From: Sandaracinus amylolyticus | Lineage (GTDB): Bacteria > Myxococcota_A > Polyangia > Polyangiales > Sandaracinaceae | Direction of reading: 5' to 3' | NCBI RefSeq assembly: GCF_021631985.1 | Contig: NZ_CP070225.1 | Location: 9,734,001-9,798,000, forward strand | Length of the DNA: 64,000 bases | In this document: positions 8,341 through 37,846 of the stretch, piece by piece | Layout of the letters: each line of letters begins with the position of its first letter | How positions within the stretch are numbered: position 1 is the stretch's first letter | The notes under the pieces: generated by a model | Told to the model about the DNA's origin: nothing | Databases searched by the model: none | What the model saw: only the letters and a program-made list of their open reading frames with translations | Made by a program: the position numbers and the translations under genes

Positions 8341-8964
8341 TCAGAAGTCGCCGAACAGATCGCCGATGCGCACGTCGAGCGCGACCGCGATCTTGTAGAG
8401 CGAGCTGATCGACGCGCTCGACTCGGCGCGCTCGATCTGGCTGAGCAGCGACACGCTGAGCGCGGTGCGCCGCGCCATCTGCTTCAGCGTCAGGTTCCGC
8501 TCCTTGCGCAGGTTGCGGATGGTCTCGCCGATGTGCCGGTGGAGGTTCTCCTCCGGCGTCCGGATGAGACCCTTCTTGCGCATCACGCGGTCGAGCACCG
8601 CGCGGAACTCTTCGGGATTGAAGGGCTTCCGCAGGTAGTCGACGGCGTCGAGCTTCATCGCCTGCACGGCGGAGTCGAGGCTCGGATAGCCGGTGAAGAT
8701 CACGACCGCGATGTCCGAGTCGACCTTGCGGATGCGCTTGAGGACGTCGAGCCCGTCCATCTTCGGCATCATCAAGTCGAGCACGACGAGGTGGTAACCG
8801 CCGACGCGGACCTCTTCCTCGACGTGTGTCGGATCGTTCTTCGCGGTGACCTGGAAACCATCCTTCGCGAGGAAGGTCTCCATGTAGTCGCAGATCTCCT
8901 TGTCGTCGTCGACGACCAGGACCTTGACCGCAGGAATCGGCTTGCTCACACCGCCCTCCGTCAT
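8341..8964 (-). CDS. Response regulator with XRE-type helix-turn-helix output
   Basis: The ATG at 8964 gives 207 residues. An N-terminal receiver domain (about 13-128) has the acidic pair Asp19/Asp20, phosphoacceptor Asp63 (VVLDLMMPKMDG), Thr91 and Lys113 (YLRKPF). After a short linker, an XRE/Cro-type helix-turn-helix follows (about 146-205; LTLKQMARRTALSVSLLSQI). It is therefore a phosphorylation-controlled DNA-binding regulator, but with an output domain different from the common OmpR, NarL or NtrC types. No kinase gene is adjacent, so it is probably an orphan regulator with a distant partner. The tRNA-Pro gene lies about 190 bases upstream on the same strand. Confidence 0.9.
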   Translation of the reverse strand: MTEGGVSKPIPAVKVLVVDDDKEICDYMETFLAKDGFQVTAKNDPTHVEEEVRVGGYHLVVLDLMMPKMDGLDVLKRIRKVDSDIAVVIFTGYPSLDSAVQAMKLDAVDYLRKPFNPEEFRAVLDRVMRKKGLIRTPEENLHRHIGETIRNLRKERNLTLKQMARRTALSVSLLSQIERAESSASISSLYKIAVALDVRIGDLFGDF

Positions 8965-9152
8965 CGTCGATGCTCGCGCGTCACGCGCCCGGTCGGAGAA
9001 GACAAGAAGCGGCCGCCCCCGCCGGCGACCGGCGAGGTGATGCGTTCGAGGCGGCAGGACCACTCCGCCCGCTCCGTGTACGATCCGCCGGAGGCGGACC
9101 CGCGGAGCGGCCGGGGGTCGAGAGGGGGGCGGAGCCCCCTCGGGGAAAAGAG

Positions 9153-14997: not shown

Positions 14998-15426
14998 ATG
15001 GCGACGGACCTCACGACACGGTCACGCTCGACGGGCCTCGTCGACGTGCTCGATCGCGTGCTCGACAAAGGCCTGGTGATCGCCGGCGACGTGCGCGTGT
15101 CGCTCGCCGAGGTCGAGCTGCTGACGATCCGGATCCGGCTGATCGTGTGCTCGCTCGACAAGGCCGAGGCGATCGGGCTGGACTGGTGGAAGCACGATCA
15201 GCACCTCGCGCCAGGGCGCGCATCGGCGCTCGCCGAGGAGAACGCTGCGCTGCGCCGCGAGCTACGCGCGCTCGAGGAGCGCGTGGCCGCGCTGGGTCTT
15301 CCGCCCGCCGCTGCGTCGCGTCCGGTGCGAGCGCGCGTCGGTGCGGAGCGCACGGCGCAGGCGGCACGCAAGAAGACTTCGCGGCGATCGGACCGCGAAC
15401 CGGCCAAAACCGCGAAGAAGGGGTGA
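14998..15426 (+). CDS. gvpJ: Gas vesicle protein GvpJ
   Basis: The 142-residue product has the GvpA-superfamily core (residues ~13-60): [20 protein letters not shown] then LAEVELLTIRIRLIVCSLDK. The GD before the second strand, and the IGLDWWKHD segment after the core, are the features that separate GvpJ from the main shell protein GvpA; cyanobacterial GvpJ has the same WW motif. After it comes a predicted coiled coil (ALAEENAALRRELRALEERV) and a basic Lys/Arg/Ala-rich tail (KKTSRRSDREPAKTAKKG). GvpJ is a minor, essential assembly/nucleation component. First gene of the locus; gvpA follows after nine bases. Confidence 0.9.
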   Translation: MATDLTTRSRSTGLVDVLDRVLDKGLVIAGDVRVSLAEVELLTIRIRLIVCSLDKAEAIGLDWWKHDQHLAPGRASALAEENAALRRELRALEERVAALGLPPAAASRPVRARVGAERTAQAARKKTSRRSDREPAKTAKKG

Positions 15427-15435
15427 GGGGCACAC

Positions 15436-15780
15436 ATGGCCGTCGAGCGGACTCCGGGAGGAACCAGCCTGATCGACGTGCTCGATCGCGTGCTCGACAA
15501 GGGCATCGTGATCGACGCGTGGGTGCGCGTGTCGTTGGTCGGGATCGACCTCATCACGGTCGAGGCGCGTGTGGTCGTCGCGTCGATCGACACCTACCTC
15601 AAGTACTCCGAGGCGGTCGGGCAGACGACGTCGCTCTCGCGCCCAGCGCCGATCGTCGAGACCGTCTCCGTCTCGAGCAGCCGCGAGGAGCTCCTCGCCG
15701 AGAACGCGACGCTGCGCGCCGAGCTCGCAGCCCAGACGCTTCCGTCCACCAACCGTCGCAGGGCACGCGTCGCGCGCTGA
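15436..15780 (+). CDS. gvpA: Gas vesicle major structural protein GvpA with extended C-terminus
   Basis: Residues 12-62 are a near-canonical Gvp[21 protein letters not shown], then [18 protein letters not shown], then [10 protein letters not shown]. GvpA monomers form the ribbed, hydrophobic gas-filled shell. GvpA is usually about 70 residues; this one is 114. The extra C-terminal ~50 residues hold a Ser/Pro linker and a short leucine-rich heptad stretch ([17 protein letters not shown], Leu86/Leu93) followed by a basic end. That segment resembles the coiled-coil region of the adjacent GvpJ. A purine-rich RBS (GAGGGG) precedes the ATG. The stop is directly followed by the histidine kinase start. 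Confidence 0.95.
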
Positions 15781-17958
15781 GTGAGCATGTCGTCCGAGGG
15801 AGCGACGCGACGTCGAGCGACGCAGCGATCGAGGGACTCACGATCGCCGCGCTCGGGTGTGCGCGAGATCCGGGGGAGGGCGACGAGCGAGCAGCGCCTC
15901 GCGCTCGTCCAGTCGGTGCTCGGCGCGCAGGACGCGAGCGCGTGCGCCAGCGAGGTGCTCGCGTGGCTGGGGGTGGTCGCGGGGGTGTCGCGCGGGTGCG
16001 TCGGGCTGGTCGATCTCGAGGCGCTGCAGTGCGTGACGATCGCGTCGGCGGGGCTCGATCCGCGGGAGGTGAGCCCGGCGATCCCGCTCGATCGCGCCGA
16101 CGAGCCGATCGCGTCGGTGCTCGTGCAGCGCGACCCCGTGCTCTTCCGCGCGGGCGACACCGCGCTGCTCGGGGGCGCCGCGTTCCACGCGCTCGTGCTG
16201 CGCGCGCGTGCGAGCGACGACGAGATCGCGCTCGGGCTGATGCTCGTGTCGTGCGCGGGCGGCGATGCGCTGTGCGACGACGTGGTGTGGGCCGCGGGGA
16301 TCCTCGGTGACTGGCTCGCGCAGCCGAGGCGACGACCCGACTCGCGCCACGTGCGCGAGCGACAGCTGATGCTCGCGGTGCTCAACGCGGTGCCCGATCC
16401 CGTGCTGCTCACCGATCCCGACGGGCGCCTGCTCGTCGCGAACGCGCGCGCCGAGCGCCTCTTCGCGTCGCGCGACGAGGAGAGCGAAGGACGGCGCCGC
16501 GCGATCGCGCTCAACAACATGCTCTTCAGCGCCGCGCTCGCGAGCATGGTGTTCTCGGGGCCCGAGCAGCCGGCGCCGAGCGAGCTGCTGCTGGTCGATC
16601 CGACCGAAGGGAGCGACCTGCTCTTCGAGCTGATGTCGCACGTCGTGAAGGACGCCGCCGAGGGCACGTGCGTGGTCTCGGTGCTGCGCAACGTGACGGA
16701 CCTCGGGCGCGCCGCGATGGAGCTCGAGCTCGCGTACAAGAAGCTCCGCGCGTCGGAGGCCGACGTGCGCGCGCAGCGGCATCGCCTCGAGCTGATCATC
16801 GACTCGGTCGCCGACCCGATCGTCGTGACCGATCCGCAGGGCGAGATCCTCCTGATGAACGAGCCGGCGGAGCGCGTGTTCACCGTGCCCGACGACGCAC
16901 CGGGCGAGGCGCTACGCGCGGTGCGCGGCAACGAGGCGCACTTCTCGTCGTTCGTCTCGAACCTGCTCTTCAGCGGGCACGAGGAGCAGCGCTATCGCGG
17001 CGAGCTCGGGCTGGTGTCGCCGCTCACCGCCGAGCCGCTGCCGGTCGAGGCGATCGCGGGCAAGGTGCTGAGCCAGCAGGGCGAGCTCAACGCGGTGGTC
17101 ACGATCTTCCACGATCGCCGGGAGGCGCTCGAGAAGGCGCGGCTCTACGAGCAGCTCGAGAAGGCCGCGAGCGAGCTCGAGCAGCGCGTGCAGGAGGCGA
17201 CCGCCGAGCTGGTGCGTCAGAACGAGCTCCTGCGCCGTCAGGCGGTCGAGCTCGAGCGCGCTTCGGCGGCGAAGTCGCAGTTCCTCGCGAACATGTCGCA
17301 CGAGCTGCGCACACCGCTGAACGCGATCCTCGGCTACACGTCGATGTTGCTCCAGGGCGTCAGCGGAGAGCTCACGCCGCCGCAGAAGCAGAAGGCCCAG
17401 CGCATCGAGGACAACGGCAAGAACCTGCTCGCGATCGTGAACGAGGTGCTCGACATCTCGCGCATCGAGGCGGGGCGCATGCCGCTGCACGTCTCGAGCT
17501 TCGAGATCGCCGAGGTGGTGCGCGAGGTCGTCGCGGAGCTCGAGCCGATCATCGCGCGCTCGCAGCTCGACGTCGGCGTCGAGCTGCCGGAGGTGCTCGC
17601 GGAGGTGCGCAGCGATCGCCAGAAGGTGAAGCAGATCGTGCTGAACCTCCTCGGCAACGCGCTGAAGTTCACGCGCGAGGGCGCGGTGCGCATCCGCGCG
17701 CGCAGCACGCGCGGCGCGGTGTCGGTGACGGTCGCGGACACCGGCATCGGCATCGCGCCGGAAGACCAGGAGCGCATCTTCGAGGAGTTCCAGCAGGGCG
17801 ACAGCTCGCCGACGCGTCGCTACGGCGGCACCGGGCTCGGTCTCGCGATCTGCCGGCGTCTCGCGCGGATGCTCGGCGGAGACATCTCGGTCGTCAGCGT
17901 GCTGGGCGAGGGATCGACGTTCGAGCTGAGCCTGCCGACACGGATGAAGAAGCGATGA
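15781..17958 (+). CDS. Sensor histidine kinase 1 of the gas-vesicle locus (GAF-PAS-PAS-HisKA-HATPase)
   Basis: The GTG at 15781 abuts the gvpA stop (an ATG lies at 15787); 725 residues. There is no membrane segment, so it is cytoplasmic. A GAF-like region (~40-190) is followed by two PAS domains (about 200-300, [20 protein letters not shown]; and about 340-450, [20 protein letters not shown]), a coiled-coil linker, a HisKA domain with phospho-accepting His507 ([14 protein letters not shown]) and a HATPase with N box ([11 protein letters not shown]), G1 (VADTGIGI) and G2 (GGTGLGLAI). It overlaps response regulator 1 by four bases (ATGA), so they form a pair. Kinase genes inside a gvp operon are unusual and suggest direct control of vesicle assembly. 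Confidence 0.93.
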
Positions 17959-18404
17959 CGGCGAAGAAGACCACCGGCGCGAAGAAGCCGGGCGCGCAGC
18001 GCGCGACCGGCGAGCACGGCCACGGCGAGCAGCCCCTCGTGCTGATCGCCGACGACTTCGGCGACGCGCGCGAGATGTACCGCGAGTACCTCGTGTTCTC
18101 GGGGTTCCGCGCGGCCGAGGCGCGCGACGGCAAGGAGGCGATCGAGCGCGCGCACGAGCTCGCGCCGAGCGTGATCCTGATGGACCTCGCGATACCGTCG
18201 ATGGATGGCTGGGAAGCGACGCGACGCCTCAAGGCGGACGCGCGCACCAAGAAGATCCCGGTGATCGCGATCACCGGGCACGCGCTGAGCGGTGACGCCG
18301 AGCGGGCGCGCGCCGCGGGCTGCGACGGCGTGCTCAGCAAGCCGTGCCTGCCCGAGCGCGTGGTGGAAGAAGTCCGGCGCGTGCTCGCGCGCCGGCGCGC
18401 GTGA
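17955..18404 (+). CDS. Single-domain response regulator 1 of the gas-vesicle locus
   Basis: This 149-residue protein starts inside the kinase stop (ATGA). A Lys/Ala/Gly-rich basic N-terminal tail ([15 protein letters not shown], ~25 residues) precedes a complete receiver domain: acidic pair in LIADDFGD, phosphoacceptor Asp77 ([13 protein letters not shown]), Thr in IAITGHA, and Lys in LSKPC. No DNA-binding or enzymatic output follows. The output must therefore be protein-protein, for instance with a Gvp protein or another kinase as in a phosphorelay. It is co-transcribed with gvpF/L, which starts 32 bases downstream. Confidence 0.93.
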
Positions 18405-18436
18405 TCGAGCGACCCGAGGGGAGACGGAGCACGACC

Positions 18437-19426
18437 ATGGCGAAGCAGAAGCCCCGAGCCGCAGCGACGAAGACCGCGCCCAAGACCAGCGCGCGCAGCG
18501 CTGCGACCGAGAGCGGTGTGAAGCCGATGCGCACGAAGGCCTCGAAGAAGCCCGCGGCGGCGACCGCGAAGCCCGCGGCGACGACGAGTGATCGGACGCG
18601 CGCGCGCAAGGCGGTGCCCGAAGCGCTCGCTGCGGTCACGCCTGCGCCGATCGCGCCGTCGCACGAGAGCGCGGTCCGGGGCAAGTACGTCTACTGCATC
18701 ATCCGCACGGATCGCCCGGTGAGCTTCGGCGCGATCGGGATCGGTCAGGAGCCCGCGGAGGTCTACACCGTCGCGCATCGCGATCTCGCCGCGGTGGTCT
18801 CCGACACGGCGCTCGTGGTGCACGATCCGACGCGCGAGAACGTGCTCGCGCACCAGGGCGTCGCCGAGACCGTGATGCGCGGCTACACGGTGATCCCGAT
18901 GTCGTTCGGCACCGTCTTCAAGACGCGCGAGGACATCGTCGAGCTCCTGCGCTCGGCCGAGGGCGCGTTCCGCGACGTGCTCGAGAAGATGCAGGATCGC
19001 TTCGAATTCGGCCTGAAAGTGCTATGGGATCGCGATCAGATCGTGCGCGAGATCGAGCGCGAGGACGAGAACGTGCGGCGCCTCAAGGACGAGATCTCGG
19101 CGCAGAAGGGATCGACGTACTTCGCGCGCATGCAGTACGGGCGGCTCGTCGACGCGACGCTGCAGTCGCGCACCGAGCAGTACGTGGCCGAGGTGTTCCA
19201 CGCGCTGCGCGACGTCGCGGTCGCGTCGCGCACCAACAAGCCGATCGGCGACAAGATGATCCTGAACGCGGCGTTCCTCGTGTCGCGCGATCAGGAGCAG
19301 GCGTTCGACGCGCGCGTGAAGGAGATCGGCCAGCGCTACGACGGGCGGCTGACCTTCAAGTACACGGGGCCGTGGCCGCCCTACAACTTCGTCAACATCC
19401 GGCTGAAGCTGGAGCGCGCGCAGTGA
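18437..19426 (+). CDS. gvpL: GvpL/GvpF family protein with basic N-terminal extension
   Basis: The ATG at 18437 gives 329 residues. Residues 1-75 are Lys/Ala/Thr/Pro-rich (e.g. ASKKPAAATAKPAATT), like a histone-H1 tail, and have no counterpart in usual GvpF/L proteins (about 210-280 residues). The GvpL/F domain starts at KYVYCIIRT (~82) and has the conserved HRDLAAVVSD, VIPMSFGTVF and C-terminal GPWPPYNFVNI motifs. GvpF and GvpL are minor assembly proteins that contact GvpA before shell growth. The gene ends in a GTGA overlap with gvpG. The symbol gvpL rather than gvpF is a choice, since the families intergrade. Confidence 0.9.
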   Translation: MAKQKPRAAATKTAPKTSARSAATESGVKPMRTKASKKPAAATAKPAATTSDRTRARKAVPEALAAVTPAPIAPSHESAVRGKYVYCIIRTDRPVSFGAIGIGQEPAEVYTVAHRDLAAVVSDTALVVHDPTRENVLAHQGVAETVMRGYTVIPMSFGTVFKTREDIVELLRSAEGAFRDVLEKMQDRFEFGLKVLWDRDQIVREIEREDENVRRLKDEISAQKGSTYFARMQYGRLVDATLQSRTEQYVAEVFHALRDVAVASRTNKPIGDKMILNAAFLVSRDQEQAFDARVKEIGQRYDGRLTFKYTGPWPPYNFVNIRLKLERAQ

Positions 19427-19728
19427 TCGTCCTCGATCGACTGCTGATCGGCGGGATCCGCTTCGTGCTCGACAAGGTCGTGGCGGCCGTCGATCGCGAG
19501 CTGAACGACGACACCCAGCTGCGCGAGCGCCTGCTCGAGGCGCAGATGCGCGCCGAGCTCGGCGAGATCGACGAGGAGGAGCTCGCGGCGATCGAGCGCG
19601 AGGTGATGGCGCGGCTGCGCGCGATCCAGGAGGCCCGCGGGGACGCCGCGATGACGATGGATCCGCGCACGATGCGGGTGACCGGCGTCGAGGCGAGCGT
19701 GGTCGAAGACGACGACGACGAGCGCTGA
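19423..19728 (+). CDS. gvpG: Gas vesicle protein GvpG
   Basis: The GTG at 19423 overlaps the preceding stop by four bases; 101 residues. The sequence follows the GvpG pattern: an N-terminal hydrophobic helix (DRLLIGGIRFVLDKVVAAVD), then a charged helical region (LRERLLEAQMRAELGEIDEE, LAAIEREVMARLRAIQEA). GvpG is a small accessory protein needed for gas-vesicle assembly, often coded next to gvpF. An Asp/Glu-rich C-terminus (VVEDDDDER) ends the protein. The Get3-like ATPase starts 13 bases downstream. Confidence 0.88.
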   Translation: MIVLDRLLIGGIRFVLDKVVAAVDRELNDDTQLRERLLEAQMRAELGEIDEEELAAIEREVMARLRAIQEARGDAAMTMDPRTMRVTGVEASVVEDDDDER

Positions 19729-19741
19729 GCGCGAGACCGCG

Positions 19742-21691
19742 ATGCAGTACCGGTTCTTCGCGGGCAAGGGTGGCGTCGGGAAGACGAGCTGTGCGGCCGC
19801 GACCGCGCTGCGCGAGGCGGAGCGCGGCGCCGACGTGCTGCTCGTGTCGACCGATCCCGCGCACTCGCTCGGTGATGCGCTCGGTCGCACGCTCGGGCCC
19901 GAGGCGCGCGACGTGCCGGTGCGTGGTCGCGGGAGGCTGCGCGCGCTCGAGCTGGATGCCGATGCCGCGCTCGATCGCTGGATCGCGGCGCGCGAGCCCC
20001 GGCTGCGCGAGATCGCGTCGCGCGGCACGTACCTGTCGCGGGAGGAGATCGATCGCTTCTTCCGGCTCTCGCTGCCGGGCGTCGACGAGCTCGTCGGGCT
20101 GGTGGAGCTCGAGCGATTGCGCCGGGAGCTCGAGCCCGAGCGGGTGATCGTCGACACCGCGCCGACCGGCCACGCGCTGCGCCTGCTCGACACGCCGGCG
20201 CTGCTCTCGCAGCTCGCGCGCGTGCTCGACGACATGCAGGAGAAGCATCGTCAGGTCTCGAGCGCGCTCGCGGTGGGTCGCTATCGCGAGGACGCCGAGG
20301 ACGCGCTGATCGCCGAGATCGAGGGCGAAGCGCGCGAGGCGCGGGAGCGGCTGCGCGACCGCGCGCGCGCGTCGGTGCGTTGGGTCGCGCTGCCCGAGGC
20401 GCTCTCGATCGAAGAGACCCGCGACGGGCTCGAGGCGCTCGCGTCGATGGGCGTGTGCGTCGACGAGATCGTCGTGAACCGCGTCACGCCGGTGCCGCGG
20501 GCGCGCTGCGTGCGGTGCGAGGCCAGGGTCGCGAGCGAGCGCGCCGCGATCGGCGCGCTGCTCGAGCGTGCGAGCGCTCCGGTGCGGCAGGTGCCGCGCC
20601 TCGACGGCGAGCCGCGGGGCATCGAGGGGCTGCGTGCGCTCGGTGACGCGCTCGCGCGTGAGGATCGCGGGCGCGCGCTGATCGCGAGCAAGGCGCCGCG
20701 CGCGGCGCGGACGTCGTCGCGTGCGCGCCCGGCCCGTGCGCTCGGGTTCGTGACCGATGCCTCGCTGCGCCTCGCGCTCTTCGGGGGCAAGGGCGGCGTC
20801 GGCAAGACCACGTCGGCGGCCGCGGCGGCGATCGCGATCGCGGAGCAGCACCCCGAGCGGCGCGTGCTGCTGCTCTCGACCGACCCCGCGCACTCGCTCG
20901 GCGACGCGCTCGAGCTCCGGCTCGACGACGATCCGCGACCGGTGCCCGGCGTCGAGGGGCGGCTCGACGCGCGCGAGATCGACGCGTCCGCGGAGCTCGC
21001 GCGGCGCAGGCAGGAGCACGCGCGCGCGGTCGATGCATTGTTCGACGCGCTGCGCGGCGGCTCGCGCCTCGATCCGGTGCTCGATCGCGCGATCGTGCAC
21101 GACCTGGTCGAGCTCGCGCCTCCGGGCATCGACGAGCTCTTCTCGGTGGTCGCGATCCTCGATGCGATCGACGGCGGGTACGATCTGGTGATCGTCGACA
21201 CCGCGCCCTGGGGCCACACCGAGCGATTGCTCGCATTGCCGGCGACGGTTCGCGAGTGGGTGAAGGCGCTGCTCGCGGTGCTCCTCGAGTACCGCGAGGT
21301 GATCGGCCTCGGTGAGCTCGCCCAGGATCTCGTGGGGTTCTCTCGCGCGCTGGCGCGCCTGGTCGAGACCTGGCGCGACCCGGCGCGCACCGCGTTCGTG
21401 CCGGTCACGCGGCCCGCCGCGCTGCCGCGCCTCGAGACCGAGCGATTGCTCGCATCTCTCGGGTCGCGCGGGATGCGCGTGCCCTCGCTGATCGTGCTCG
21501 GTGACGACGATCGCGACGGTGCGCCGCGATGCAGCGCGTGCACGCGCGCGCTCGCCGACGAAGAGGACGAGCGCAGCGCGCTCGCGGAGCGCGCCGGGGA
21601 CGCGAAGCTGGTGCGAGCACCGCTCCTCGCGGTCCCGCCGCGCGGTGTGCGTGCCCTGCGCGCGTGGGCGCACGAATGGGAGGTGGCGTGA
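19742..21691 (+). CDS. Tandem ArsA/Get3-like ATPase in the gas-vesicle locus
   Basis: The 649-residue protein is two homologous ATPase halves. Half 1 has a deviant Walker A with signature lysine (AGKGGVGKTS, Lys9/Lys14), the switch segment STDPAHSLGDAL, and DTAPTGHALRLL. Half 2 repeats this (GGKGGVGKTT, Lys350/Lys355; STDPAHSLGDAL; DTAPWGHTERLL). Each half has a CxxC (Cys256/Cys259 in RCVRCEAR; Cys597/Cys600 in RCSACTR), at the place of the zinc-binding CxxC of Get3, and half 1 ends with the Get3-like EPRGIEGLRAL. ArsA pumps arsenite together with ArsB; Get3 shuttles hydrophobic membrane proteins. No arsB, arsR or arsD is nearby, so an assembly or chaperone role for Gvp proteins is the better inference. 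The stop overlaps the next gvp start (TGATG). Confidence 0.88.
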   Translation: MQYRFFAGKGGVGKTSCAAATALREAERGADVLLVSTDPAHSLGDALGRTLGPEARDVPVRGRGRLRALELDADAALDRWIAAREPRLREIASRGTYLSREEIDRFFRLSLPGVDELVGLVELERLRRELEPERVIVDTAPTGHALRLLDTPALLSQLARVLDDMQEKHRQVSSALAVGRYREDAEDALIAEIEGEAREARERLRDRARASVRWVALPEALSIEETRDGLEALASMGVCVDEIVVNRVTPVPRARCVRCEARVASERAAIGALLERASAPVRQVPRLDGEPRGIEGLRALGDALAREDRGRALIASKAPRAARTSSRARPARALGFVTDASLRLALFGGKGGVGKTTSAAAAAIAIAEQHPERRVLLLSTDPAHSLGDALELRLDDDPRPVPGVEGRLDAREIDASAELARRRQEHARAVDALFDALRGGSRLDPVLDRAIVHDLVELAPPGIDELFSVVAILDAIDGGYDLVIVDTAPWGHTERLLALPATVREWVKALLAVLLEYREVIGLGELAQDLVGFSRALARLVETWRDPARTAFVPVTRPAALPRLETERLLASLGSRGMRVPSLIVLGDDDRDGAPRCSACTRALADEEDERSALAERAGDAKLVRAPLLAVPPRGVRALRAWAHEWEVA

Positions 21692-22461
21692 TGAAGGGCC
21701 GCGCGATCTACGCGTACTGCATCGTCGCGGGCGTGTCGCCCGATCGCCTGGAGCGCGCTCCGCGCGGCGTGCCCGATGCGTCGCCGCCGCGCCTCGTGTC
21801 GATCTCGGAGGGCATCGATCTCGTGATCGCCGACGTCGACGCGAGCGCGTGGTCGGAGGACGTGATCACGGCGGGCCTGCGCGACATCGACTGGGTCTCG
21901 GAGCGGGCGCTCCGCCACGAGGAGATGGTCTCGCACTTCCTCGGCGCCGACGCGGTCGTGCCGATGAAGGCGTTCACGATCTTCCGCTCCGAGGCGCGCG
22001 CCCGCGATCACGTGCGCGAGCGCGAAGCGAGCGTGCGCGCCGCGATCGATCGGGTGAGCGGCTGCGTGGAGTGGAGCGTGCGCATGCGCTTCGACGAGCG
22101 CGCCGCGCGCATCGCGCGCGAGCGAGAGGGCGCCGCGCAGAAGCCGGCGAGCGGCGCTGCGTTCCTGGCGCGCAAGAAGCAGATCGCCGACTCGACCCGC
22201 GGCGCGCGTGTCGAGGCCGCCGAGGTCGCGAGCGCGATCGTCGAGCGCCTCGCCGCGCCGGCGCGCACGCATCGCCGCATCCCGCCGCCCGAGGGCACGC
22301 CCACGCAGCTCGTCGCCGAGGCGACGCTTCTCGTGCCGCACGATGCGCAGCCCGAGATCGAGCGCATCGCCGAGGGCGCACGCGCCGAGCTCGCACGGCA
22401 CGGCGTCGATCTCGAGCTCAGCGGCCCGTGGGCGCCCTACCACTTCGCAGGAGGCGCGTGA
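21691..22461 (+). CDS. gvpF: GvpF/GvpL family protein (second copy)
   Basis: The 256-residue product starts at the ATG overlapping the ATPase stop (TGATG), with GGAGGTGG upstream. It begins IYAYCIVAG, the usual GvpF/L first strand, and carries the internal VVPMKAFTIF motif (equivalent to VIPMSFGTVF in the first copy). A helical middle includes a SVRAAIDRVSGCVEWSVRM stretch. The C-terminal motif is SGPWAPYHFAGG. It is shorter than the first copy and lacks its basic tail. It overlaps the gvpS/M-like gene by one base. Confidence 0.88.
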   Translation: MKGRAIYAYCIVAGVSPDRLERAPRGVPDASPPRLVSISEGIDLVIADVDASAWSEDVITAGLRDIDWVSERALRHEEMVSHFLGADAVVPMKAFTIFRSEARARDHVREREASVRAAIDRVSGCVEWSVRMRFDERAARIAREREGAAQKPASGAAFLARKKQIADSTRGARVEAAEVASAIVERLAAPARTHRRIPPPEGTPTQLVAEATLLVPHDAQPEIERIAEGARAELARHGVDLELSGPWAPYHFAGGA

Positions 22462-22697
22462 TGACCGATCGCATCGACGACCTGGTGCGCGCCCACTCCG
22501 ATCGCGACGATGTCGAGCGCCTGCTGCCGCCCGACACGACGCTGCTCGATCTCGTCGACAACCTGCTCGACAAGGGCCTGCTGGTGCACGGCGAGCTCGT
22601 GATCGGCCTCGCCGGCGTGGACCTCGTGTACGTCGGGCTCAGCGCGGTGATCTGCGCCGCGGATCGCCTCTTGCCCGACTCGCGGAGGCGGCGATGA
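22461..22697 (+). CDS. Small GvpA-superfamily protein, GvpS/GvpM-like
   Basis: The ATG at 22461 overlaps the preceding stop (TGATG) and has an upstream GGAGG. The 78-residue product has a compact GvpA-like core in residues ~27-70: LLDLVDNLLDKGLLVHGELV, then GLAGVDLVYVGLSAVICAAD. The HGEL in place of DAWV, and LVYVGL, resemble GvpS/GvpM/GvpJ minor proteins rather than GvpA. The N-terminus (~25 residues) is acidic and has no counterpart in GvpA. It is a candidate minor or nucleating subunit; assignment among S, M and J is not certain. Confidence 0.82.
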   Translation: MTDRIDDLVRAHSDRDDVERLLPPDTTLLDLVDNLLDKGLLVHGELVIGLAGVDLVYVGLSAVICAADRLLPDSRRRR

Positions 22698-23362
22698 GCG
22701 TGTGGTGGGCGCTCGCCGTCGTCGATCGGGCGCCCGATGGGCTCGCGCAGATCGACGGAGCGCGGCTCGAGGCGTTCGCGCTCGACGAGCACGCAGCGTT
22801 GATCGCGGCCGAGCTGCCCGCGATGCCGGTCGCGGGGCTCGACGCGCTGCGCCGTCACGACGCCGCGGTGCGTGCGCTCGCCGAGCACGTGCGCGCGGTG
22901 CTCCCGGTTCGCTTCGGTGCCCACGCGTCGGATCCCGCTCGCCTCGTCGAGCGACTGCGGGGCCGCGAGGACGCGCTGCACGAAGGGCTCGAGCGCGTGC
23001 ACGACGCGGTGCAGGTCACGGTGCGCGCGATGCGTGGGCCGCCGCTGGTGTTCGCGCCGATCGACGATCGCGACGCGTCGCTGGGCCCGGGCGCGCGCTT
23101 CCTGCGACAGCGCGCCCGCGTGCCGCGCCCGCCGCGCTGGGACGTGCTGACGGCCTCGCTCCGCGCCCACGTTCGCGCCGAGCGGCTCGACGAGGGTGAT
23201 CCGCGCTTCGACGCGTGGCGCGTGTACCACCTCGTGCCGCGCGCCGCCGAGCCCGCGTACCGCGCCGAGCTCGCGCGCGTCGTCGCCGAGGTGCCCGACT
23301 GGGAGCTCGTCGCCGGCGTGTCCTCGCCGCCCTATGCGTTCGCCGCGGAGGTGCTCTCGTGA
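22694..23362 (+). CDS. GvpF/GvpL family protein (third, divergent copy)
   Basis: The ATG at 22694 overlaps the preceding stop by four bases (ATGA); 222 residues. The order of elements matches GvpF/L: an N-terminal strand (VWWALAVVDR), a central VLPVRFGAH motif (equivalent to VIPMSFGTVF), a helical region and a C-terminal VSSPPYAFAAEVL motif that parallels GPWPPYNF. It is the most divergent of the three copies, but position, motif order and operon context support the call. It overlaps gvpK by four bases (GTGA). Confidence 0.78.
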   Translation: MSVWWALAVVDRAPDGLAQIDGARLEAFALDEHAALIAAELPAMPVAGLDALRRHDAAVRALAEHVRAVLPVRFGAHASDPARLVERLRGREDALHEGLERVHDAVQVTVRAMRGPPLVFAPIDDRDASLGPGARFLRQRARVPRPPRWDVLTASLRAHVRAERLDEGDPRFDAWRVYHLVPRAAEPAYRAELARVVAEVPDWELVAGVSSPPYAFAAEVLS

Positions 23363-23700
23363 GCCGCATGCGCGCCGTCGAGATCGCCGAGGCGGAGATC
23401 GCGAAGCTGGGGCAGCGCCTCGAGAAGGACGCCGAGCGCGCGCGCTGGAACGCGAACCCCGAGGACGCGCAGCGCGCGCTGGTGAAGCTCGTGCTGACGC
23501 TCGTCGAATTCCTCCGCCGCCTCATGGAGCGCCAGGCGATCCGCCGGATGGAGGACGGCACGCTCGACGACGACGAGGTCGAGCGCATCGGGCTCGCGCT
23601 GATGCGCCTCGAAGAGACGATCGTGCAGCTCTGCGAGCAGTTCGGGATCGATCCCGACGAGCTCGGGCTCGATCTCGGTCCGCTCGGGAAGCTCTTCTGA
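23359..23700 (+). CDS. gvpK: Gas vesicle protein GvpK
   Basis: The GTG at 23359 overlaps the preceding stop; 113 residues. The sequence fits GvpK: WNANPEDAQRALVKLVLTLV, FLRRLMERQAIRRMEDGTL, VERIGLALMRLEETI and a C-terminal GIDPDELGLDLGPLGKLF. GvpK is a conserved accessory protein required for vesicle formation in several systems. The histidine kinase 2 start follows after two bases, so it is co-transcribed with the second two-component pair. Confidence 0.92.
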   Translation: MSRMRAVEIAEAEIAKLGQRLEKDAERARWNANPEDAQRALVKLVLTLVEFLRRLMERQAIRRMEDGTLDDDEVERIGLALMRLEETIVQLCEQFGIDPDELGLDLGPLGKLF

Positions 23701-23702
23701 CG

Positions 23703-25493
23703 ATGGCGGGCCAGCGCAGGATCTCGGGCTGGCTCACCACTGCACGACGCGACTGGCGCGCCGCGCAGCTCGGGCTCTCGTGGCTCGCGATCTTCGTCGT
23801 CGTCGCGCTCATGGTGCTCGTGCCCTACGTGCTCTACCTGCGCGGGCGCACGATCCGGAATCGCCTCGCGTTCGAGGTGAGCGCGATGGAGCTCGCGGTG
23901 GAGCGCGCCGCGCGCGCGATGGCCGATCGCGAGCGCGCGCTGCGGGCGTTCCTCTATCGCCCCGACGCACGCCGCCGCGAAGAGCACGAGTCCGCCGCGA
24001 TCGCGCTGCGCGCGGCGCTCGAGAGCGCGGAGGTGATCGCCGCGACCGACGAGGAGGCGTGGCGCCGCGAGGTCGCGCGGATGCGCGCGCTCGAGATCGC
24101 GTGGGAGGCCGCGTCGCGCGAGCTCGTGGAGCGCGCTGCGCGCGGCGAGCGCGATCTGCTCGACGACCCCGACGTCGCGCGCCCCGGCCCGGTCTACGCG
24201 GAATTCCAGGCGGTCGCGGCCGCGCTCCTGGGCTCGCTCGACGCCGAGAAACGAGAGCTCGTGAGCACGATGCGCGGTGCCGACGACGCGCGCCTCGCGA
24301 TGCCCTTCGCGCTCGCGCTGCTCGGCGTGCCGATCCTGTTCTACGTCGGCCGCCTCTCGCTCGACGTGATCGGTCTGCTCGCGATGACGCGCGCGGAGCA
24401 GCAGCGCCTGGCGCGCATCCTCGAGCACATGGTCGATCCGGTGCTCGTCACCGATCGCCGCGGCACCATCACGCTCGCGAACCCGTCGGCGCGATCGCTC
24501 CTCGGCGTGCACGACGGAGCACCGGTGCGCGCCCTCGCCGCGCGCATGCGCGACGCCGAGCGCGGCCACGCGATCCTCACCGCGATCGCGCGCGCCGAGC
24601 CCTTCGCTGCGGCCGAGGTCGTGATCGACGGAGGCGCCGAGGAGCGCTGCGTCAGCGTGAGCAGCGCACCGATCGCGGTGGGCGACGACGTCGTCGGCGC
24701 GGTGACCGTGCTGCGCGATCTCAGCGATCGGGTGCGCTACGAGCAGGAGCGCCTGAAGACCGAGCGCTTCCACGCGCTCGGCGCGATGGCGGAGCGGCTC
24801 GCGCACGACTTCGGCAACTACCTCGAGGCGGCGTCGGGCGCGGCGGCGATGCTCGAGCGTCCGAGCGCGGCCGATCCCGACAAGCGCTCGCGCTGGGTGC
24901 GTCTCATCCGCACCACGATCGACGAAGGGCGCAACGTGCTCGCGGGCCTGCGCACGCTGAGCTTCATCTCGTATCGCAGCCCGCGCTTCTCGCCGGTGGA
25001 GCTGCACGGCGTGGTGTCGCGCGCGCTCGACGTGGCGCGGCTCGCGCGACCGGACGCCGGCGCGATCGAGCTCGCGGCCGACGTGCCGCGTGGCCTCTCC
25101 GTGCCCGCGAGCGAGAGCGATCTGGTGCGCGCGCTCGTGAACGTGCTGGTGAACGCGATCGACGCGACGTCGGTCGGCGGTCGTGTCGACGTGACGGCGC
25201 GCGTCGAGGACGCGTGCGTGCGGCTCGCGATCCGCGACACCGGCGTCGGCATCCCGCTCGAGGATCACGAGCGCATCTTCGACATGTACTTCACGACCAA
25301 GGGCGCGCGCGGATCGGGCATGGGCCTCGCGCTCGCGCGCGAGGTCGTCCACCTGCACCGCGGCGACATCCTCCTCGAGAGCGCTCCGGGCGCGGGCTCG
25401 ACGTTCACCGTCGTGCTCCCGCTCGCGCACGACGAGGCGGGCACGTCGTCGCGCCCACGTGAGGGCGCGGCCCTCGAGGAGGCACGATCGTGA
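23703..25493 (+). CDS. Sensor histidine kinase 2 of the gas-vesicle locus (membrane, PAS, variant H-box)
   Basis: The 596-residue protein has an N-terminal membrane helix (~24-46, LSWLAIFVVVALMVLVPYVL), a periplasmic helical domain of ~150 residues and a second helix (~200-220, FALALLGVPILFYVG). A PAS domain (HMVDPVLVTDRRGTITLANP) follows. The histidine region reads RLAHDFGNYLEAAS with His368, unlike the usual HELRTPL or HEIRNPL. The HATPase has the N box (NVLVNAIDAT), G1 (IRDTGVGI) and G2 (GSGMGLALAREV). The stop overlaps response regulator 2 (GTGA). The periplasmic domain suggests that it senses an external or envelope signal. Confidence 0.9.
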   Translation: MAGQRRISGWLTTARRDWRAAQLGLSWLAIFVVVALMVLVPYVLYLRGRTIRNRLAFEVSAMELAVERAARAMADRERALRAFLYRPDARRREEHESAAIALRAALESAEVIAATDEEAWRREVARMRALEIAWEAASRELVERAARGERDLLDDPDVARPGPVYAEFQAVAAALLGSLDAEKRELVSTMRGADDARLAMPFALALLGVPILFYVGRLSLDVIGLLAMTRAEQQRLARILEHMVDPVLVTDRRGTITLANPSARSLLGVHDGAPVRALAARMRDAERGHAILTAIARAEPFAAAEVVIDGGAEERCVSVSSAPIAVGDDVVGAVTVLRDLSDRVRYEQERLKTERFHALGAMAERLAHDFGNYLEAASGAAAMLERPSAADPDKRSRWVRLIRTTIDEGRNVLAGLRTLSFISYRSPRFSPVELHGVVSRALDVARLARPDAGAIELAADVPRGLSVPASESDLVRALVNVLVNAIDATSVGGRVDVTARVEDACVRLAIRDTGVGIPLEDHERIFDMYFTTKGARGSGMGLALAREVVHLHRGDILLESAPGAGSTFTVVLPLAHDEAGTSSRPREGAALEEARS

Positions 25494-25870
25494 GCGAGCA
25501 GCCGTCCGTCCTCGTCGTCGACGACAACCGCTTCATCCAGGAGAGCCTGCCCGCGCTCCTCGAGGAAGAGGGCTATCGCGTGACCGTCGCGATCAACGGC
25601 GAGGACGGCTTCCGGCGGGTGTGCACGCAGGCGATCGATCTCGTGATCACCGACGTCGCGATGCCCGACGTCGACGGTGTCGAGCTCATCCGGCTGATGC
25701 GGCTCGATCCGTTCTTCCAGCGCGTGCCGATCGTCGCGATGACCGCGTACGGCGGCCGCCGCATGCAGGAGGCGAAGGACGCGGGCGCCGACGTGTGCTT
25801 CGAGAAGCCGATCGATCACCCGCTGCTGCTCGACACGGTCGCGCGGCTCACGCGCGCGGCGTCGCGCTGA
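25490..25870 (+). CDS. Single-domain response regulator 2 of the gas-vesicle locus
   Basis: The 126-residue protein starts at a GTG within the kinase stop. It is a receiver domain alone: acidic pair in VLVVDDNRF, phosphoacceptor Asp55 (VITDVAMPDVDGV), Thr in IVAMTAYG and Lys in FEKPID. There is no output domain, as in response regulator 1. The last 23 bases overlap the convergent hydrolase gene. It closes the gas-vesicle locus. Confidence 0.92.
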   Translation: MSEQPSVLVVDDNRFIQESLPALLEEEGYRVTVAINGEDGFRRVCTQAIDLVITDVAMPDVDGVELIRLMRLDPFFQRVPIVAMTAYGGRRMQEAKDAGADVCFEKPIDHPLLLDTVARLTRAASR

Positions 25871-26714
25871 CCTGCCTCGCCATGTCGAGGATCACCCGCG
25901 CGACGAGCGCGGGATCGTCGAAGTGCGGGCAGTGCCCGACCGCATCGGGCTCCTCGATGCGCGCGTGACGCGGCAGGTGCTCGCGGAAGTACGCGAGGTC
26001 GCTCGCGGGCAGCAGCCGCTCCGAGCAGCCCCACACCAGCGTCACCGGCATCGCGAGCGCGGCGAGCTCTTCGGGGGTCGCCGCTTGATCGGGCCTCGCG
26101 CCCGCGAGCAGGCCCTGCACCACCGGGCTCCCCATGCGCGCGCGGATGCCGCTCGCGAAGAGCGACGTGAGCGGCGGCGTGCGGTGGTAGACGCGCGCGA
26201 CGAACGCGTGCGCGTCCGCGGTCGTCGGCATGTGGAACGCGCGGCGCACGTCGGCGAGCTCGTCGTCGTTCATGCGCGCGCCGGCGGGTGAGAGGAGCAC
26301 GAGGCCGTGGACCTTCTCCGGTCGATCGCGCGCGTAGCGCAGCACGATCGCGCCGCCGAGCGAGTTGCCGCAGAGGATCACCGGCTCGTCGATCACGCGA
26401 TCGAGCACGTCGCGCATCACGTCGAGCAACGTGTCCGGCGTGAGCGCGCCGCGGGGCGGACCGCTGAAGCCGTGACCCGGCAGCTCGGGCGCGACGACGC
26501 GGCGCACGTGGGGGAGCAGCCGCGCGAGCACCGGCCCGAAGGGCGCGCCCGCCGAGCCGATCCCGTGCACCACGACGACCGGCGGCAGCGTCCCCGCGCC
26601 GCGCCCTTCGTACACGTTCACGCGCCCGACGGGCGTGTCGATCACGCGGCCGCGGATGCCACGCGCGCGGAGCGCGGCGCGCGCGAGACGCTCGGCGATC
26701 GGAAGGAAGACCAT
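25848..26714 (-). CDS. Alpha/beta-fold hydrolase
   Basis: The 288-residue product has the alpha/beta hydrolase plan: VVVVHGIGSAGAPFGPV (oxyanion region near 47-62), the nucleophile elbow GNSLGG with Ser118, and a C-terminal GHCPHF with His261 as the likely catalytic base. The ELPGHGFSGPP loop (77-87) is typical of esterases, epoxide or C-C bond hydrolases. A hydrophobic cap region sits in the middle. Substrate unknown. It converges on response regulator 2 with a 23-base overlap. Confidence 0.85.
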   Translation of the reverse strand: MVFLPIAERLARAALRARGIRGRVIDTPVGRVNVYEGRGAGTLPPVVVVHGIGSAGAPFGPVLARLLPHVRRVVAPELPGHGFSGPPRGALTPDTLLDVMRDVLDRVIDEPVILCGNSLGGAIVLRYARDRPEKVHGLVLLSPAGARMNDDELADVRRAFHMPTTADAHAFVARVYHRTPPLTSLFASGIRARMGSPVVQGLLAGARPDQAATPEELAALAMPVTLVWGCSERLLPASDLAYFREHLPRHARIEEPDAVGHCPHFDDPALVARVILDMARQVSATPRA

Positions 26715-34425: not shown

Positions 34426-37400
34426 TCAGCGCGTGCGACGCGGCGCCATCTCGGAGATCACGCGGGCGACGGTGGCGGGATCGGTGGGCTTCGCGAGGTG
34501 CGTCTGGAAGCCCGCCTCGCGCGCGCGCCACGCGTCCTCGGGGCGCGCGAACGCGGTCATCGCGATCGCGGGGACGCTGCCTCCGCCGAGCGTCGGTCGC
34601 GCTCGCACCGCGCGCAGGAAGCCGTAGCCGTCGAGCACCGGCATCGCGACGTCGCTGACGATCACGTCGGGCACCGCGCGATCGAGCGCACGGAGGCCCT
34701 CGGCTCCGTCGCGCGCGTCGACGACCTCGGCGCCCGCGGCGGAGAGCGCGACGCGCAGCGCCTCGCGCGTGTCGTCGTCGTCCTCGACGAGCAGGACCTG
34801 CACTCCGTCGAGGCGGATCACGCCGGGCGCGATGCGCTCGGGCATCACGCCGTGCTCGCTCTCCGCGACGTCGGGCCTCGCGGGCAGCCGAACGACGAAG
34901 CGCGTGCCGCGATCACGACCTTCGCTCGCGACCGAGACGCTGCCCCCGTGCGCCTCGACGAGGTGCCGCACGATCGCGAGCCCGAGGCCGACGCCTCCCT
35001 TGCCGCGCCCCGGTGTCGGTCGCGCCTGTCGGAACCGTTCGAACACGTGGGGCAGGAACGTGGGCTCGATGCCGATGCCGTCGTCCTCGACGACGAGCTC
35101 GAGCGCATCGCCGTGGCGGCGCAGCACGACCCGCACGTACCCCTCGTCGCGGGAGAACTTCACCGCGTTCGAGACCAGGTTGCCCACGACCTGCTGCAAG
35201 CGCGATCCGTCGGCGCGCACGCGCGGGCAGGGAGCGTCGGCGACGAGCTCGATGCGCACCTGCCGGGCGTCGGCGACCGGGCGCAGCGCCTCGATCGCGG
35301 CGCGCGCGACGAGCTCGGGATCGACGTCCTCGCGCTCGAGCCGCAGCGTGCCCCCGACGATGCGCGCGACGTCGAGCAGATCGTCGACGAGCTTCGCCTG
35401 CGCGCGCGCGTTGCGATCGATCGTGTCGAGCGCGCGCGTGACGAGCGTGGCGTCGTCGGTGCGCACCCGCGCGATCGCGGCCCAGCCGAGGATCGCGTTG
35501 AGCGGCGTGCGCAGCTCGTGCGAGACGGTCGCCACGAGCTCGTCGCGCATGCGCGTGGCGTCCTGCGCGGCGCGGAAGAGCCGCGCGTTCTCGATGAGCA
35601 GCGCGGCGCGGTGCGCGATCTCCTCGAGCAGCGCGACGTCGAGCCATCTGCCCTCGCGCTCGCTCGTCACCGCGATCGTGCCGAGCACACGCCCGCGTAC
35701 CTCGAGGGGCGCGGCGATCACCTCGTGCGCGTGGGCCGCGTCGACGTATCGGCGACCCGCGTCGGTGAGGACCTGCGACGCGCCGCCGTCGAGCCGTATC
35801 CGGACCGACCTGCCGCTCCGCACGGCCTCGCCGTTGAGCGAGCCCTCGACCGGCGTCGGCTGCTGCGCGAACACGGCTTGCGCGAGCGACTCGCGCGCTG
35901 GATCGAGGTGGTGCAGCGCGACCGTCTCGAGCCACTCGCCGTCGGGCGAGAGCAGGTTGATCGTGGCGAGATCGCCGAGCTTCTGCGCGGCGATGCGCGC
36001 GATCGCGGCGTGCGCGAGCTCGGGATCGAGGCTCACCTCCGCGAACACCCGCGAGATGTCGGCGAGCGCGCCGAGGCGCTGGGCGTCGCGGGCTCGCTCG
36101 GCGGCCGACTCGCGCGCTTCGGTGTAGAGGCGCGCGTTCTCGAGCGAGATCGCGGCGCGCGCTGCGAGGCGCATCGCGAGCGCGCGGTGTCGCGGCCCGT
36201 GACGCCGCCCCGAGCGCGCCATGCCGACGTGGAGCACCGCGAGCGTGCGGCCGTGCGCTGCGATCGGCACCGCGAGCGAGGTGCGCGCGCCGATCGCGCG
36301 CAGGATCGCGAGCTCGTCCGCGTCGTGCGCGATGCGCTCGAGCAGCGCGTCGTCGATCTCGATGATCGGGGGCACTTCGCCGGGGTGCTCGATGGCGCGC
36401 GCGATCGGCGCGAGCGGATACGCCGACCAGTCGCGCAGCGCGTGCAGCCGCGCCTCCTGCGCCTCGTCGTCCGCGGCCTCCGCGACCTGTCGATGTCGCC
36501 CGTCGCGCTCGACCACGCCGAGCACGCACACGTCGCCGAGCATCGGTACCGCGAGCCGCGCGATCCGCCGCAGCGTCTCGTCGACGTCGAGCGACGCGCC
36601 CAGGATGTGCGCGGCCTCGGCCATGAACGCGTCGTTGGCGCGCGCCTCTTCGAGCGCGGCCTGCACGTGCGCGCGATCGAGCGCGGTCTCGGCGAGCCTC
36701 GCGATCTCCTGCGCGAGACGGAGGTCCTCGGGCGCGTGCACGCGACCCGAGCCCGGCGTGCGCGTGAGCTCGAGCGCGCCGTGCGCGCCTCCGCCGAGCG
36801 CGAGCGGCACGACGATCACGTCGGAGGTGCAGATCGTCTCGCCGCGCTCGATCACGCGCGCGATCTCCGCGGCGACGGGGCGCTCGTCGCGTCGATGCAC
36901 CGCGGCGTGATCGGCGACCGCGGGCACCACCGCCTCGACGAGGCACGCGAGCGTTGCGTCGGGCCCGAGGGGCTCGGCGAGCGCGCGACCCACGCTCGCG
37001 AGGAGGTCGCGCCTGCGTGCGGCGAGCACGCGCTCGGTCACGTCGAGCGAGAACGCGATGACGCCCTCGATCGCTCCCTGCTCGTCGCGCAGCGGCTGGT
37101 AGGTCGAGTCGAACACGCGCTCGCGACCGTGCAGCACGTAGTGGGTCGCGGGCGTGCGCACGACCTCACCCTCGCGGTACACGCGGTCGTGGAGCGCGAG
37201 CACCGGCGCGCCCATGCCGGCCTCCGCGACCAGGTCGCGCATCGGACGTCCCAGCACGGCGCGCGCGCCGAGCGCCTCGAGCGCCGGTGGGCTCAGCGCC
37301 TCGAGCACGTGGTCCGGGCCCAGCGCGAGCGAGACGAACGCGGGCAGCTGCGTGAACGCGTGCTGGATGCGCGCCCGCGCGCGCTCGACGCCCTCGGCGG

Positions 37401-37785
37401 CGCGCTTGCGATCCGTGATGTCGGTCACCGTCACCACGAAGCCGAGCACGCGCCCGTCGTCGCCGCGCCGTGGCTCGTACCCGACCTCGATCCAGCGCGG
37501 GCCCTTGCCTGCGTACGCGATCTCGGTGTCGAAGCGCTGGGTCTCACCCGCCAGGGCCGCGGCGATGTGGTCTCGCAGGCGCGCATACGCGCGCTCTCCG
37601 AGCACTTCGCGCACGCTGCGCCCGATCACCTCGTCGGCGCTGCGCCCGTGCCACGCGACGTACGCGCGGTTCGCGAAGCGGAACCGCTCGTGCGCATCGA
37701 CGTACGCGATGCGCGTCGGCACGAGCTCGAGGATCTCCGCCAGCGCGGCCCCGAGATCGCTCGGCGGGTCACCGGGTCCGTTCAA
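34426..37785 (-). CDS. Large hybrid histidine kinase (PAS-PAS-GAF x3-HisKA-HATPase-REC)
   Basis: The most plausible start is a TTG at 37785 preceded by AGGAG with six-base spacing; 1,119 residues. Two PAS domains (~18-130, ELVPTRIAYVDAHERFRFAN; ~145-260) are followed by three GAF regions (~275-380, ~400-560, ~590-740), a HisKA domain with His756 ([15 protein letters not shown]), a HATPase with N box (NLVSNAVKFS), G1 (VEDDGIGI) and G2 (GGVGLGLAIV), and a C-terminal receiver (VLLVEDDDDTREAL; VSDVAMPVLDGYG). No membrane helix is seen, so it is cytoplasmic. A hybrid kinase of this kind feeds a phosphorelay; its partner is not adjacent. Confidence 0.93.
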   Translation of the reverse strand: MNGPGDPPSDLGAALAEILELVPTRIAYVDAHERFRFANRAYVAWHGRSADEVIGRSVREVLGERAYARLRDHIAAALAGETQRFDTEIAYAGKGPRWIEVGYEPRRGDDGRVLGFVVTVTDITDRKRAAEGVERARARIQHAFTQLPAFVSLALGPDHVLEALSPPALEALGARAVLGRPMRDLVAEAGMGAPVLALHDRVYREGEVVRTPATHYVLHGRERVFDSTYQPLRDEQGAIEGVIAFSLDVTERVLAARRRDLLASVGRALAEPLGPDATLACLVEAVVPAVADHAAVHRRDERPVAAEIARVIERGETICTSDVIVVPLALGGGAHGALELTRTPGSGRVHAPEDLRLAQEIARLAETALDRAHVQAALEEARANDAFMAEAAHILGASLDVDETLRRIARLAVPMLGDVCVLGVVERDGRHRQVAEAADDEAQEARLHALRDWSAYPLAPIARAIEHPGEVPPIIEIDDALLERIAHDADELAILRAIGARTSLAVPIAAHGRTLAVLHVGMARSGRRHGPRHRALAMRLAARAAISLENARLYTEARESAAERARDAQRLGALADISRVFAEVSLDPELAHAAIARIAAQKLGDLATINLLSPDGEWLETVALHHLDPARESLAQAVFAQQPTPVEGSLNGEAVRSGRSVRIRLDGGASQVLTDAGRRYVDAAHAHEVIAAPLEVRGRVLGTIAVTSEREGRWLDVALLEEIAHRAALLIENARLFRAAQDATRMRDELVATVSHELRTPLNAILGWAAIARVRTDDATLVTRALDTIDRNARAQAKLVDDLLDVARIVGGTLRLEREDVDPELVARAAIEALRPVADARQVRIELVADAPCPRVRADGSRLQQVVGNLVSNAVKFSRDEGYVRVVLRRHGDALELVVEDDGIGIEPTFLPHVFERFRQARPTPGRGKGGVGLGLAIVRHLVEAHGGSVSVASEGRDRGTRFVVRLPARPDVAESEHGVMPERIAPGVIRLDGVQVLLVEDDDDTREALRVALSAAGAEVVDARDGAEGLRALDRAVPDVIVSDVAMPVLDGYGFLRAVRARPTLGGGSVPAIAMTAFARPEDAWRAREAGFQTHLAKPTDPATVARVISEMAPRRTR

Positions 37786-37846
37786 TGGCTGCTCCTGGCC
37801 CCGCGGACGTAGGCGCGGTCGGCGCCTCCACAACGAGAGGAGACGA

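Follow-up and report, generated by a model that had tools for sequence, protein, structure and literature searches.

The window analysed here is a 64,000-nucleotide stretch of the Sandaracinus amylolyticus genome (contig NZ_CP070225.1, positions 9,734,001 to 9,798,000), carried by an assembly of 11 Mb (G000) that comprises a 10,754,065-base contig and a second contig. Thirteen forward-strand genes, identified from open reading frames with Pfam and NCBIfam, lie between 14998 and 25870, where they overlap or are closely spaced in the following order:

14998..15426, + strand, gvpA1: GvpA-family protein (GvpA/J-like) with a basic C-terminal tail (PF00741, 60.9 bits)
15436..15780, + strand, gvpA2: structural GvpA (NCBIfam PRK09371.1, 117.9 bits; cut-off 100)
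15781..17958, + strand, HK1: histidine kinase, GAF-like, PAS, PAS, HisKA and HATPase_c (Pfam; model pLDDT 89)
17955..18404, + strand, RR1: receiver-only regulator of 149 aa with D77, T107 and K129 (PF00072, 85.4 bits)
18437..19426, + strand, gvpF1: GvpF/GvpL family, Lys/Ala-rich N-terminal tail (PF06386, 262 bits)
19423..19728, + strand, gvpG (PF05120, 55 bits)
19742..21691, + strand, two-domain ArsA/GET3-type ATPase (PF02374, 343.7 bits, two stretches)
21691..22461, + strand, gvpF2: GvpF/GvpL family (PF06386, 137.8 bits)
22461..22697, + strand, gvpA3: GvpA family, GvpM/S-like (PF00741, 47.9 bits; best NCBIfam model GvpM, below its cut-off)
22694..23362, + strand, gvpF3: GvpF/GvpL family (PF06386, 64.9 bits)
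23359..23700, + strand, gvpK (PF05121, 116 bits)
23703..25493, + strand, HK2: membrane segment, predicted four-helix periplasmic region, membrane segment, PAS, divergent HisKA (His368) and HATPase_c
25490..25870, + strand, RR2: receiver-only regulator of 126 aa with D55, T85 and K106 (PF00072, 88.8 bits)

The classical gas-vesicle set of gvpA, gvpF/L, gvpG and gvpK is present in full by Pfam match, and all 13 genes recur in identical order in a sister genome of 10,327,335 bases (G001); the block shared by the two genomes begins near 14344. Two bases separate the gvpK stop from the HK2 start, RR2 overlaps HK2, and a convergent hydrolase gene (25848-26714, reverse strand) lies directly downstream. 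Judged by gene spacing, 14998-25870 is likely a single predicted transcription unit; a sigma-70 scan returned 0 sites. Taken together, the thirteen genes resemble a single gas-vesicle operon that lacks gvpN and has a putative two-component switch of its own. Over 14998-15780, the DNA of gvpA1 is identical in the two genomes (dS 0) and that of gvpA2 nearly so (dS 0.011), the eleven other genes ranging in dS from 0.11 to 0.44; recent exchange or strong codon constraint could account for this near-identity. Basic residues outnumber acidic ones in the tails of gvpA1 (15283-15423), RR1 (17955-18035) and the Lys/Ala-rich gvpF1 (18437-18670), and several RR1 relatives also have basic C-terminal tails. 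Elsewhere in the window, the reverse strand encodes a hybrid histidine kinase that combines PAS and GAF domains with a receiver (34426-37833), and a protein carrying the catalytic domain of a guanylate cyclase (38674-40314).

We collected related loci with the window's gvpF1 as query; 180 stretches matched a pattern, 143 were confirmed, and the best 80 of these 143 were compared. Choosing by gvpF1 does not select for kinases, but it does select for this lineage. All but one of the 80 loci are labelled as MAGs. Many are incomplete, gvpA2 being out of view in 24, and genes were called by phmmer with the window proteins against stop-to-stop frames instead of from a full annotation. The phylum labels are Acidobacteriota (38), Gemmatimonadota (17), Myxococcota (11), Rokuibacteriota (8), Planctomycetota (3), Pseudomonadota (1) and Chloroflexota (1), with one locus unplaced. 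Two gene orders can be distinguished among these best 80 of 143: type A, the order of the window, in 44 loci (34 typed by gvpA2 upstream of gvpF1 and ten by an upstream HK1 or RR1), and type B, with gvpA2 after gvpF1, in 22, leaving 14 untypable. Complete type B loci carry gvpA1, gvpA2 and a kinase after gvpK. In the gvpF1 tree, one starred clade of 34 rows takes in every one of the 22 type B loci and none of type A; resolution is poor overall, with stars on 22 of 78 inner branches, the tree does not place the window firmly, and L078 sits on a very long branch with 18% of its columns filled. A search of plasmids with gvpF1 returned only relatives below 60% identity, the best-ranked (38.5%) from Octadecabacter.

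Across the related loci, HK1-RR1 is kept between gvpA2 and gvpF1. The gene immediately after gvpA2 encodes a histidine kinase in 54 of the 55 loci, among the best 80 of 143, that have at least 1 kb in view; the exception is L102, and L096, which ends 658 bases past gvpA2, was not counted. RR1 stands directly before gvpF1 in 33 of the 34 loci of the same set with gvpA2 upstream of gvpF1, the receiver of the remaining locus (L078) lying upstream of gvpA1 instead. This is the fair count; a looser one, 42 of 44, is partly circular because ten loci were typed as A by an upstream HK1 or RR1. Under a stricter test, which asked for an HK1 match above 450 bits whose start falls between the frames of gvpA2 and gvpF1, 32 of the 34 qualified; in the other two, L061 and L070, the HK1 open frame starts before the gvpA2 frame. 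Type B loci behave differently with respect to the receiver: 11 of the 12 with a full-length HK1 relative (>450 bits) have no receiver in view, which means that a locus can do without RR1. In L097 (8438-10642), L100, L103, L104, L107, L109 and L110, which come from Blastocatellia-type Acidobacteriota and one Chloroflexi, the box of the kinase after gvpA2 is HEVNNPL or HEINNPL, and a second kinase follows; in L097, the one tested, the first kinase has two PAS domains, and the second carries receivers. Rokubacterial loci L048, L055, L061, L066 and L070 have an extra kinase between gvpF1 and gvpG, and in L072, also rokubacterial, a hybrid kinase with DUF4118 follows gvpF1 and gvpG was not seen.

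HK1 has no clear membrane helix, only one weak hydrophobic window. A model of residues 25-453 built from 46 sequences (pLDDT 89) contains two PAS domains and a GAF-like domain, the latter assigned from the order of helices and strands without a family match, and PAS and phytochrome-type sensors make up most of its best structural matches. Between G000 and G001, which provide one genome pair only, HK1 is 98.8% identical with a dN/dS of 0.066. Comparison of the loci makes HK1 the conserved, notable kinase, not HK2, which the earlier note had singled out.

The slot that HK1-RR1 occupies, between gvpA and gvpF, is the one that gvpN mostly has in GvpN-bearing Myxococcota. GvpK occurs in 14 of 377 Myxococcota genomes, and GvpN exceeds its cut-off in 12 of these, G000 and G001 being the two that have no match above the TIGR02640 cut-off. 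Nine of the 12 GvpN-bearing genomes could be ordered, after setting aside L034 and L036 (gvpN on another contig) and L025 (which starts at gvpN), and in eight of the nine, all except L030, gvpN lies between gvpA and gvpF. These clusters share gvpA, F and K genes with the window operon, and some have ArsA or kinases nearby; they differ in having gvpN in this position, and their gvpF1 is 25-31% identical to that of the window (seven loci compared). Kinase or receiver genes are found near gvp in the GvpN-bearing Myxococcota loci L027, L029, L030, L031 and L035. A phmmer search with one GvpN query found no match in the best 80 of 143 related loci, and no GvpN exceeded the family cut-off in any of 30 genomes, of unstated completeness, that represent 30 of the 80 loci. 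Weak AAA-type matches below cut-off are present in G000, G001, all 30 related genomes and 12 of 14 control genomes.

A functional replacement is possible, in which HK1, alone or together with RR1, assumed the role of GvpN through ATP- or phosphorylation-driven shell growth. It would fit the shared slot, the GvpN matches staying below cut-off in the relatives tested, and the retention of the kinase where receiver and ArsA are not in view. However, a histidine kinase is not expected to have GvpN-like AAA+ activity, ArsA is a more obvious ATPase, and the shared slot may merely reflect loss and insertion. Moreover, the available text of PMC4982088 records a gvp cluster in Streptomyces coelicolor that, like the window operon, lacks gvpN. 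We consider such a takeover very improbable. The broader scenario, that in a widespread environmental lineage GvpN was replaced in its slot by a kinase controlling or powering shell growth via phosphorylation, and that Sandaracinus-type bacteria then added an envelope-sensing pair, is a long shot.

Both regulators are single receivers, as the earlier note had it: in RR1 as in RR2, only Response_reg exceeds the Pfam cut-off. The note was likewise correct that the locus encodes no DNA-binding domain, since Pfam finds none in the 13 proteins of 14998-25870, nor an NtrC-like sigma-54 activator. Its further step, from the missing DNA-binding genes to direct action on Gvp proteins, is not supported, because the regulator could be encoded anywhere in the genome, in which the RR1 query finds 146 receiver matches, itself included (best other 51% identical). 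RR1 was aligned with 45 relatives from 43 loci (46 rows with the window); D77 is kept in 45 rows (the odd one out is a gapped fragment), T107 likewise in 45 (Ser in the other), and K129 in all 46, and the relatives have at most 30 residues C-terminal to the receiver. These phosphorylation residues and short tails in 45 relatives make a non-DNA output plausible for pair 1, and the bare receivers are not a local loss.

HK2 extends from an ATG at 23703 to a stop at 25491-25493 (596 aa). Two features described in the earlier note are found here: the HDFGNYL box at His368 (HDFGN begins at residue 368), and a putative periplasmic region of ~150 residues between hydrophobic segments that peak at residues 28-46 and 198-216. 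PAS and HATPase_c exceed their Pfam cut-offs (HATPase_c 92.4 bits), whereas HisKA, at 14.1 bits, stays well below its cut-off of 26.9. The weak HisKA score, together with a glycine at H+3 that is seen in none of 18 related kinases, could be taken to indicate a degenerate kinase, catalytically dead owing to its odd histidine box. We rejected this reading as extremely improbable. His368, the candidate phosphoacceptor in the DHp domain, is accompanied by D+1 and N+4; the ATP-binding N, G1, F and G2 boxes are complete (NVLVNAIDAT at 480, DTGVGI at 512, FTTKG at 530, GSGMGLALA at 537); RR2 keeps its D, T and K; and, when HK2 is divided into six segments, DHp shows the strongest constraint between G000 and G001 (98.6% identical, dN/dS 0.077). 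Nor is the box as special, relative to the "usual" ones, as had been claimed. HDFNN occurs in 4 of the 18 related kinases counted (19 rows were compared, and one without residues in the box was left out), two of the four, L009 and L011, sharing the same box. HDF-x-N is an ordinary histidine-box type, and the odd part of the HK2 box is the glycine at H+3.

HK2 aligns with Sporulation kinase B across DHp and CA (94 bits), and its best NCBIfam model, AtoS, is far below its cut-off. It has the same PAS-DHp-CA order as the PAS-containing kinases KinB (3d36) and ZraS (9jfj), with H, D+1 and N+4 and complete ATP-binding boxes; it differs from them in the HDFGNY motif with its H+3 glycine, its place in a gvp operon and its receiver-only partner. 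Over its full length, HK2 is 86.6% identical between G000 and G001 (dN/dS 0.30). The N-terminal, periplasmic and PAS segments are the least alike (80-83% identical), and the periplasmic part has the highest dN/dS of the six segments (0.41). A conserved DHp domain combined with divergent input segments is what one would expect of a working kinase whose input is changing, as far as one genome pair can display it.

The sensor of HK2 was modelled from its single sequence with AlphaFold2 (residues 1-236, pLDDT 71) and consists mainly of four helices. The closest Foldseek match is the periplasmic sensor of Adeh_2942 (4k0d; E 0.016, probability 1.00), and no match reached E 0.001 or better. Like Adeh_2942 and R. 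palustris HK9 (3va9), which are among the top three hits, HK2 is predicted to have four helices between membrane segments; unlike them, it belongs to no sequence family above cut-off, CHASE3 scoring 12.6 bits against a Pfam cut-off of 28, and the likeness is that of a pLDDT 71 model. Among 356 Myxococcota genomes, the sensor is clearly present only in G000 and G001, and two further genomes match it at E 4.4e-4 and 6.8e-4. HK2 is best described as a fairly ordinary membrane sensor kinase, found so far only in this genus.

The position of HK2-RR2 is similarly restricted. Among the best 80 of 143, 23 type A loci show gvpK and at least 2 kb of sequence past it; only L048 has a kinase there, a GAF-rich hybrid unlike HK2. 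As far as searched, HK2-RR2 in the gvp locus is thus genus-specific. RR2 relatives across 57 genomes are at most 42% identical, RR2 itself excepted. A relay between the two pairs, which the earlier note had considered, found no support: no Hpt exceeds the cut-off in the operon, and the histories of the pairs differ, HK2-RR2 being confined at this locus to the genus and HK1-RR1 being widespread. RR1 and RR2 are 29% identical and also differ in their helix-1 regions; helix 1 of a receiver sets its choice of kinase.

We favour, with a probability of roughly 45%, a model in which HK1-RR1 is a phospho-switch controlling vesicle assembly through protein contact, with HK2-RR2 as a second input at the genus level. 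We infer phosphotransfer within each pair and contact between receiver and Gvp proteins. HK1 would sense an intracellular cue and then phosphorylate RR1, and RR1~P would contact the assembly machinery encoded alongside rather than DNA, a GvpF/L protein being our first guess for its target. Distances among HK1, RR1, gvpF1, gvpF2 and gvpK have rank correlations of 0.39-0.81, the highest being HK1-gvpF2 over all loci (0.81) and gvpK-gvpF2 within type A (0.78); since the top correlation shifts with the set of loci, no target is singled out. HK2-RR2, appended after gvpK, would bring in a signal from the envelope or from outside the cell, and it probably works independently, via RR2. Against RR1 as a universal output of the switch stand the type B loci without a receiver in view. 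The possibility of a regulator elsewhere in a genome with 146 RR1 matches, RR1 included, and sigma-54 activators near a minority of loci also weigh against the model.

These last observations belong to an alternative in which control is transcriptional and acts at a distance, RR1 and RR2 serving as phosphate shuttles or sinks for a remote DNA-binding regulator, perhaps NtrC-like. BLAST clustering of flanking genes in the best 80 of 143 loci found no family in more than 10 of the 80. The commonest was a sigma-54 activator located 1.8-6.1 kb from gvp in 10 of the 80 loci, eight of the ten carrying a receiver (NtrC-like) and two (L068 and L071) not; its presence near gvp keeps the transcriptional alternative alive. 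Precedent exists in Serratia sp. ATCC 39006, where, according to the available text of PMC4982088, regulators (GvrA, GvrB and GvrC) are also encoded in the gas-vesicle locus, the sigma-54 NtrC-like GvrA controlling gvpA1 from a second operon and GvrB and GvrC also being needed; unlike that locus, the window operon has a kinase and a bare receiver between structural genes and no gvpN. However, the sigma-54 genes are non-adjacent and, by eye, mostly lineage-specific (three Labilithrix-type, four Rokubacteria), and bare receivers are retained in the operon. The nearby DNA-binding receiver gene of the window (receiver-HTH_3, 8341-8985, reverse strand) was rejected as part of the system, as it was not found in the 40 kb searched around the G001 operon. 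The nearest neighbours of locus subgroups are a CBS protein, a HAD hydrolase, DUF456 and metabolic genes. On balance, we regard distant transcriptional control as unlikely, yet deserving of serious consideration.

Receiver-only regulators frequently act on unrelated protein targets, and the pairs could be co-expressed with gvp and act elsewhere, on motility or the cell cycle, coupling buoyancy to another behaviour. The genus-specific HK2 pair would suit this idea. Nevertheless, a kinase adjoins gvpA2 in two gene orders, including L105, L111 and L114, where neither receiver nor ArsA is in view. This speaks for a function within gas-vesicle biology, and we consider an outside target improbable.

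The two-domain ArsA protein linked to gvp is no novelty: Castillo and Saier in 2010 described an ArsA-like protein of ~640 aa in gvp clusters, and the available text lists L/F, J, K and M genes, and no N, for an acidobacterial cluster that has it (PMC2963123). The main text of that paper never uses the terms "histidine kinase", "sensor kinase" or "response regulator" (0 occurrences). We found no description of a gas-vesicle operon variant with a built-in kinase/receiver pair in the open-licence literature searched. In its available text, a 2022 review counts gvpN among the genes conserved in all gvp clusters and has it enlarging bicones into cylinders (PMC9501494). The kinase-bearing lineage in which GvpN was not found, which spans seven phyla as labelled, would make only tiny vesicles or build them differently, and HK1-RR1 would offer a way to control, by signalling, how a structure employed in ultrasound imaging is assembled.
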